Assembly: GCF_000744655.1 (NCBI RefSeq)
Contig: NZ_JQMJ01000004.1
Coordinates: 5,828,001 to 5,892,000 of the forward strand
Reading direction: 5' to 3'
Source: Streptacidiphilus rugosus AM-16
Lineage (GTDB): Bacteria > Actinomycetota > Actinomycetes > Streptomycetales > Streptomycetaceae
Length of the DNA: 64,000 bases
A program made the translations under genes and the position numbers. How positions within the stretch are numbered: position 1 is the first letter of the stretch; each line of letters opens with the position of its first letter. The notes beneath the pieces were generated by a model. That model was not told where the DNA came from and did not search any database. It was given only the letters and a program-made list of their open reading frames with translations. Below are positions 9,355 to 10,676 of the stretch, piece by piece.

Positions 9355-9395
9355 ATCCTTGGGCCCGGATCGCTCGCCGTCAAGAGCGAATCATC
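9355..9395 (-). promoter_or_regulatory. Promoter and operator-like site of the transporter operon
   Basis: On the minus strand TTGACG (9383-9378) is followed after 17 bp by AAGGAT (9360-9355), a usable -35/-10 pair about 125 bp before the ATG. The -35 is embedded in GTCAAGAGCGAATCATC (plus strand, 9379-9395). This matches 15 of 17 positions of the site over the -35 of the GH2 gene (10636-10652). One of the two hybrid regulators is the likely binder. Confidence 0.6.
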
Positions 9396-9435
9396 GAAAA
9401 ACTTTCATTTGATCACTCGATCGCAATCCATGGAG

Positions 9436-10578
9436 TCAGCTGAGCACATGCTCACGCAGCGGGGTCGGCACACCGGCAGGCTCCGGGGTGTCGCCGCAGG
9501 ATACGCGGACCCGCAACGAGGGCAGCAGGTCGAGGTGCCGCCTCGCCCCGCCCTCACCGCACGCCCCGCCGAAAGCCCCGCCGCCGGGCGCACCCAACCG
9601 CGTGAGCAGCAACGACACCGCCGTCTCGCCCAGCTGACGCTTCGGCGGCGCCACCGCCGTCAACGGCACGTCGGCGAGCGCGGCCACCTCGTCGTCGTAG
9701 GCCACCAGCGCCAGATCGTCGGGCACCCGCAGGCCGTGCCGGTGCAGCGCCTGGAGCAGCCGCAGCGCGTCCTCGTCGGTGTGCACCAGCGCCGCGTCCA
9801 GCCCCGCCCGCCGCACCTCGGCGACCACCTGCCCGTCGGACGTCGCGTCGCGGGCATGCGGACCCGGCAGGTCCAGGACCAGCGGCTCCAGGCCGAGCGC
9901 GGCCATGGCCGCCGCGTAGCCCCCGGCCAGGTGGCGCGCGGTCGGGGTCTCCGACCTGGCCAGCAGGCCGATCCTGCGCCGGCCGAGGCGGGCGAGGTGA
10001 CGCACCGCCAGCCCGGCGCCCTCGTTGTGCGCGGTGCAGACCCGGTCCAGTCCGGCCAGCGCGGTGCCCGGCCCCGCCCGGCGCTCCAGCAGCACCGCGG
10101 GCAGCCCGAGCTGCAGGATGCGCCGCTCGTCGGCCGCGTCCGGGAGGCCCTCGGGCCAGCTCGGCGTGAGCAGCAGGCCCGCGGCCCCGCTCTCGGCCAG
10201 CGCGGCGAGCTGCACCCGGTCGGCCTCCGGCGAGTAGTGCGAGATGCCGAGCACCAGCCGCACTCCGGCCCGTGCCGCGGCCGCCCTGGCCCCGCGGATC
10301 ACCTCGGCGTAGTAGTAGTCGGCGACCGGCAGCAGCATGCCGACGACCGGAGGATCCGCGCCGGGCCCCGCCTCCGGCGCGGCCGCGTCGTCGCGCGGCC
10401 GGCTCACCCGCCCGTGGACCCGGTCCAGCAGGCCGGCCGCGGCGAGCGCCTCCACGTCGCGGCGCGCCGTCGCGGCGGAGACGCCCAGCTCGGCCGCGAG
10501 GTCGCCGACTCTGAGACTGGGCCGCTCGCGGAGCAGGCCGAGGATCTGCCGGTGCCGGAGCTCGGCGGTGGCGCGCAT
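9436..10578 (-). CDS. Hybrid transcriptional regulator: DeoR-type HTH plus LacI-type sugar-binding domain
   Basis: A 380-residue paralogue of the regulator at 2033-3121. The N-terminal winged HTH (about 1-60, [20 protein letters not shown] and [18 protein letters not shown]) is DeoR-type. Residues about 75-340 form a LacI-type ligand-binding fold with the same signatures ([34 protein letters not shown]). The C-terminus is extended by a Gly/Ala-rich linker and an [13 protein letters not shown] segment, also present in the paralogue. It sits between the divergent transporter operon and GH2 gene, whose promoters share an operator-like sequence, so it is the prime candidate repressor of both. Confidence 0.86.
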
Positions 10579-10607
10579 GTGCTTCCCCTTGCAGCCGTGA
10601 CGAGTTT

Positions 10608-10676
10608 GAGCGATTCTTTCGCTTCGCGATCATACGATCAATCGCTCTTGACGCAAGGGGCACACCTTCCTAGATT
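10608..10676 (+). promoter_or_regulatory. GH2 promoter with overlapping inverted repeat
   Basis: TTGACG (10648-10653), 17-bp spacer and TAGATT (10671-10676) form a good housekeeping-type promoter 41 bp before the GTG. GAGCGATT (10608-10615) and AATCGCTC (10640-10647) are inverted repeats abutting the -35. The right copy is part of GATCAATCGCTCTTGAC (10636-10652), shared with the transporter promoter. Repressor binding here would block RNA polymerase. The regulator gene's own start (10578) lies just left, so the same element may autoregulate it. Confidence 0.65.

Follow-up and report, generated by a model that had tools for sequence, protein, structure and literature searches.

A sequence shared by the promoters of an ABC importer operon and a GH2 beta-galactosidase gene probably belongs, as the end nearest the promoter, to an operator of the hybrid regulators encoded beside them; these regulators would repress both transcription units until a sugar ligand appears. 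At both promoters, the shared sequence belongs to a longer box that is conserved in relatives and stands at a fixed distance from the −35 element. The genes of the cluster in the 64-kb window, which is the whole stretch of DNA analysed, are listed below, as assigned by domain search (Pfam for the GH2 gene).

2033–3121, plus strand: hybrid regulator 2, HTH_DeoR and Peripla_BP_3
3285–4250, plus strand: type I phosphodiesterase/nucleotide pyrophosphatase family protein
4103–4984, minus strand: xylose-isomerase-like TIM barrel protein
5013–6038, minus strand: D-2-hydroxyacid dehydrogenase
6069–6935, minus strand: ABC importer permease
6932–7888, minus strand: ABC importer permease
7899–9224, minus strand: ABC importer solute-binding protein, SBP_bac_1
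9436–10578, minus strand: hybrid regulator 1, HTH_DeoR and Peripla_BP_3
10717–13599, plus strand: GH2 beta-galactosidase, LacZ-type domains

The minus-strand operon comprises the solute-binding protein, the two permeases, the 2-hydroxyacid dehydrogenase and the TIM-barrel protein. The GH2 protein matches NCBIfam LacZ models, in each case below the cut-off of the model. The convergent ORFs of the phosphodiesterase and the TIM-barrel protein overlap by 148 bases as called (4103–4250), and in one relative from the genus (L119) a TIM-barrel match is absent between the two neighbouring genes.

The two regulators combine domains of different families. The DNA-binding domain is of the DeoR family, and HTH_DeoR (PF08220) was matched with 52.7 bits (cut-off 21) at residues 8–59. 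The proteins are not of the full-length DeoR type, as their C-terminal part is Peripla_BP_3 and no DeoR C-terminal domain was detected at E 0.001. This part is a LacI/GalR-type sensor, which was matched by PF13377 with 102.3 bits and by LacI-family structures. A LacI-type HTH (PF00356) was found in neither regulator and is present in the LacI protein encoded at 16947–18191; no NCBIfam cut-off was passed by regulator 1 or 2. The two regulators are 59% identical to each other; for the next match in the genome, the identity falls to 33% (E 2e-17). Their recognition helices, one of which reads GVSAVTARRDVE, are almost the same, which suggests that either or both paralogues could bind a given box and makes cross-regulation between them likely.

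The initial annotation reported that GTCAAGAGCGAATCATC (9379–9395, plus strand) and GTCAAGAGCGATTGATC (10636–10652, minus strand) agree in 15 of 17 bases and overlap the −35 elements, and both observations hold: 15 of 17 bases are shared, and the TTGAC of the conserved TTGACG −35 lies inside both words. With up to 3 mismatches, the word occurs in two places only in the window, compared with a mean of 0.05 matches in the shuffle control, in which none of 100 dinucleotide shuffles contained two. The 11-mer GTCAAGAGCGA is by itself not specific, since it occurs exactly 4 times in 9 Mb (two of them here) versus 6 times for the reversed control. The 17-base word is one 8-bp unit of a longer box plus the −35. 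The box extends over approximately 24 bp, mostly upstream of the −35, and the word covers only its −35-proximal edge. The boxes and promoter elements in the window are as follows.

1900–1923, minus strand: candidate 24-bp box AAACAATC ATCCGGTC ACCCGATC, upstream of hybrid regulator 2
9355–9360, minus strand: −10 of the importer operon, AAGGAT, after a 17-base spacer; AAGGAT or AATGAT in 3 orthologous loci
9378–9383, minus strand: −35 of the importer operon, TTGACG, read from the sequence; recurs in 3 orthologous loci
9384–9399, minus strand: second importer box TTTCGATG ATTCGCTC, in the opposite orientation, abutting the importer −35 and holding the box part of the 17-base word
9399–9422, plus strand: 24-bp box AAACTTTC ATTTGATC ACTCGATC, upstream of the importer operon promoter
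10624–10647, plus strand: 24-bp box TCGCGATC ATACGATC AATCGCTC, abutting the GH2 −35, between GH2 and the divergent regulator 1
10648–10676, plus strand: GH2 promoter TTGACG-17-TAGATT from the promoter scan, −35 at 10648–10653

The importer promoter thus has two boxes in opposite orientation, at 9384–9399 (minus strand) and 9399–9422 (plus strand). A promoter scan of 9224–9435 did not report the importer promoter under the rule of the scan; TTGACG-17-AAGGAT is readable at 9383–9355. An inverted repeat formed by GAGCGATT and AATCGCTC at 10608–10647 was rejected as the position of the upstream arm is not conserved.

The motif was derived from relatives. Regions upstream of regulators and importers were taken from 79 loci (of 80 fetched; L025 was set aside as the same contig stretch as L119) and from 11 stretches of genus genomes. 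Of these 90 loci, 45 contain a regulator, a solute-binding protein, a permease and a dehydrogenase together, and 2 contain a GH2 gene. Dereplication reduced 154 upstream regions to 85 (29 importer, 53 regulator and 3 GH2), from which expectation-maximisation yielded a 16-mer close to WTTCGATCAWTCGATC. At widths of 20 and 24, the model shifted into the −35 or combined different phases; width 16 was hence used for the held-out test, which covered 75 regions without the window and L025/L119–L121. The held-out 16-mer reached a log-likelihood ratio of 354.8 (50 starts) versus 84–106 for four shuffled sets with 25 starts each. It places the GH2 and importer promoters at ranks 1, 2, 3 and 5 of the window. 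The top match is 10632–10647 (22.6), followed by 9407–9422 (22.2) and 9399–9414 (21.0), and 9384–9399 ranks fifth (18.0); the maxima of ten shuffled windows were 12.4–16.8. The fourth-ranking match at 48359–48374 (18.1), part of a motif match at 48359–48382, lies inside a topoisomerase-like ORF (47146–49635) and was rejected.

A three-unit model, in which the unit is the held-out 8-mer and which was devised after the boxes of the window and the orthologues were seen, gives its best score in the window at 9399–9422 (30.2; the highest of 10 shuffled maxima was 16.6) and its second at 10624–10647 (24.2). A 5-fold cross-validation that took the overall consensus as its starting point placed 20 of the 25 importer regions above the shuffled 95% level (14 of them above the 99% level) and 5 below the 95% level; of the 50 regulator regions, 33 were above the 95% level (26 of them above the 99% level) and 17 below the 95% level. 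By computation, the recurrence of the motif beside relatives of the regulators exceeds chance, as would be expected of an operator. The motif matrix is similar to its own reverse complement as well as to copies of itself displaced by 4 or 8 bases, and the box may be a direct repeat or a palindrome. Direct-repeat and palindromic models tied over 16 bp are about equal (298.1 and 289.8), both worse than the free model at 354.8; over 24 bp, the direct model reaches 288.7 and the palindromic model, which has more free parameters, 371.9. Downstream of GH2, the stretch 13618–23316 carries genes for a PL8 lyase with CBM96, a LacI regulator, a GFO/IDH/MocA oxidoreductase, a DUF993 protein, a TIM-barrel protein and a GH35 protein. 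Among the matches listed, the three-unit scan has no box upstream of these genes, and the 16-mer has a single match there (19820–19835, 15.7), within the shuffled range.

The position of the motif relative to the −35 is fixed. The distance was measured in 52 regions with a 16-mer score of at least 15, unselected for distance, in which TTGAC was sought within 45 bp downstream. Same-strand TTGAC starts exactly 0 or 8 bp after the motif in 21 of 23 occurrences (0 bp, n=5; 8 bp, n=16; 9 bp, n=1; 28 bp, n=1), where 0.07 is expected per offset, and the 10 occurrences on the other strand are spread over six offsets. Among the 29 importer regions, only 14 have a phase-locked TTGAC, and among the 53 regulator regions only 8. 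In 25 promoters selected because a box lies 0 or 8 bp from TTGAC (14 importer, 8 regulator, 3 GH2), the −10 falls in the same columns, which is the sole unselected result of that set. The promoter in each of the 8 phase-locked regulator regions is directed away from the regulator gene, and the divergent gene encodes DUF2264 in all five loci tested (L026, L055, L030, L036 and L044). A set of nine divergent genes, phase-locked or not and including those of L026 and L055, encodes DUF2264 (4), PL8 (3), GH35 (1) and alpha-amylase (1). In relatives, the box precedes importers and divergent DUF2264 genes.

Across four genus loci, 31 of the 40 positions that directly precede the importer TTGAC do not vary, compared with 2 of the next 22 positions upstream; the corresponding counts for GH2 are 22 of 40 and 0 of 22. 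At the importer, the conserved block starts sharply approximately 40 bases before TTGAC. The presence of the same box in the same place in relatives suggests that the importer, GH2 and regulator genes are probably switched together.

Profile R1 was built from sixteen 24-mers of relatives, none from the window; 8 of the 16 rows come from the genus loci L119–L122, so that tests with R1 are not fully independent. At E<=10, R1 has four matches in the 9-Mb genome (150 of 1084 first-look candidates were scored), and the best two are 10626–10647 at GH2 (E 0.02) and 9400–9422 at the importer (E 0.18). The other two are a coding match at 48361 and L133, a site in a GATC-rich stretch close to the beginning of an ORF with no evident link, which was rejected. 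The second importer box at 9384–9399 scores weakly with R1 (E 8.4 within the window). One genus genome, G004, has 12 R1 matches, of which 3 are the cluster promoters (importer, GH2 and second regulator) and 1 is located in front of a PL8 gene; 5 of the other 8 lie inside an ORF as called. The PL8 site (L146, C34:183366–183388) is outside the cluster and is followed by ATTGACG before the lyase gene.

The promoter region of regulator 2 probably carries the box as well. The initial annotation had placed a recurring word at 1943–1950. AGCGAATC is present there, at chance level (2 matches versus 0.94 expected, and at least 2 in 23 of 100 shuffles), and this site was dropped as an operator copy, although two orthologues again show GATTCGCTA near the putative −10. 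The link to regulator 2 probably stands with a different site, 1900–1923, which is third in the window by the three-unit model (22.9), a model chosen after the boxes were seen. With the held-out 16-mer, 1908–1923 scores 11.9, below the shuffled maxima. R1 detects 1900–1923 at E 0.074 within the window, and the site is absent from the listed matches of the 9-Mb genome. A similar sequence was observed in L119 and a shifted form in L120. Beside this candidate box, a palindrome, TTTCGCGAAA, is located at 1921–1930; L119 has TTTTGCGAAA. The earlier reading of a shared operator is largely right and incomplete. An operator-like, conserved box at the importer and GH2 stands beside a hybrid regulator gene, and where one regulator had been assigned, either or both of the two paralogues may bind.

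Judging from these sequences, the importer operon, GH2 and probably regulator 2 would be switched together by a two-part sugar sensor. Operators of approximately 24 bp, composed of GATC-like tetrads 8 bp apart, would lie directly against the −35 elements of the importer operon and GH2, and another would probably stand before the second regulator gene. We infer that the hybrid regulators bind these boxes, with one or both paralogues paired to each. Without ligand, the bound regulator would keep RNA polymerase off the −35; a sugar or oligosaccharide that binds the LacI-type domain would cause release, upon which the importer, the beta-galactosidase and the regulators would rise together. Analogy with the LacI and DeoR families makes a repressor released by a sugar ligand the most likely mechanism, and the good hexamers of the GH2 promoter point the same way.

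Activators, too, bind on the upstream side of the −35, which is where the phase-locked boxes stand; the main rival is therefore activation through the same operators, with the regulator contacting RNA polymerase when sugar is present. The spacing of 0 or 8 bp is tighter than plain occlusion needs, which favours this reading. However, the hexamers of the GH2 promoter, 17 bases apart, agree with the consensus in 9 of 12 bases, the DeoR-type SugR represses from sites within or downstream of promoters (PMC2222622), and the word occurs near the −10 in Nonomuraea and kin; activation is accordingly a reading that we regard as possible and rather unlikely. In these relatives, GAGCGAATGAT was observed near the −10 in 12 importer upstream regions (L048, L054, L056, L058, L063, L065, L066, L067, L071, L073, L079 and L092), which indicates that the word is not merely a −35 flank; 3 more regions (L121, L125 and L126) contain it elsewhere. 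In many of the 12 regions, a sequence resembling TTTCGTTACTGATCGA precedes a −35 similar to CTAGACA or CTGGACA; the arrangement of the same motif differs in these regions.

Activation may also be extended to a widespread actinobacterial class of DeoR-HTH/LacI-sensor proteins with a fixed cassette (24-bp box, −35, spacer of approximately 17 bases and −10) and ligand-dependent activation, in which the cassette would precede different hydrolases (GH2, DUF2264 and PL8) and the importer operon would be constant. We consider this generalisation speculative. The linked genes for PL8, DUF2264 and beta-galactosidases suggest a glycan containing uronic acid or galactose. DUF2264 may be a glucuronidase family; in the open-access literature, no paper joining DUF2264 with glucuronidase was found.

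The boxes could instead be bound by a different regulator, such as the LacI-family protein encoded nearby at 16947–18191. A close hybrid regulator (E 1e-60) is present in 8 of 14 genus genomes, and three of these (G002, G005 and G006) have no R1 match at E 2, as might be expected if another protein used the box. Conversely, R1 matches at E<=2 were found in 5 of the 8 genomes, at the regulator cluster in 4 of them (G000, G003, G004 and G009), whereas 5 of the 6 genomes lacking a close hybrid regulator have no match and 1 has a match at E 1.98. The motif was moreover derived from regions adjoining hybrid regulator genes or their importers, and a different regulator is improbable. That the two promoters are merely similar, through a shared −35 flank or promoter duplication, is very improbable: TTGAC is part of the 17-base word and many of the promoters share CTCTTGAC, but these places remain at the top with the held-out 16-mer, in which TTGAC is absent, and the best importer box at 9399–9422 does not touch the −35.

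Repression by the hybrid regulators, the reading preferred here, describes what is probably a well-conserved and ordinary kind of local gene switch. For the hybrid sugar regulators found next to importer operons in many actinomycetes, it provides a concrete operator and promoter geometry, and the box allows genome scans that tie importers to hydrolases, such as the PL8 lyase gene in another member of the genus. No description of this operator was found in the open-access literature on hybrid regulators and DeoR operators. The closest architecture is that of AraR from Bacillus subtilis, described in PMC4218819 as a chimera of a GntR-type HTH and a LacI/GalR-type sensor in carbon catabolism. In both cases, a winged HTH of another family is joined to a LacI-type sensor domain, and an arabinose metabolism repressor (3tb6) is among the structure matches of the hybrid regulators; the HTH here is DeoR-type, and the comparison covers the protein architecture. 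RhaR is likewise a DeoR-family regulator of a sugar operon, with operators of a repeat type that the box here may share. Its motifs are given in PMC3870299 as two imperfect direct repeats with a 10–11 bp period, whereas the spacing here is 8 bp and the sensor is LacI-type. SugR of Corynebacterium glutamicum is also an actinobacterial DeoR-type sugar repressor, but its 21-bp motif, AC-rich and non-palindromic (PMC2222622), is unrelated to the box described here. The LacI-family repressors (LacI, RbsR, PurR and GntR) share the sensor domain at residues ~78–330, and the hybrid regulators differ from them in lacking the LacI-type N-terminal HTH.
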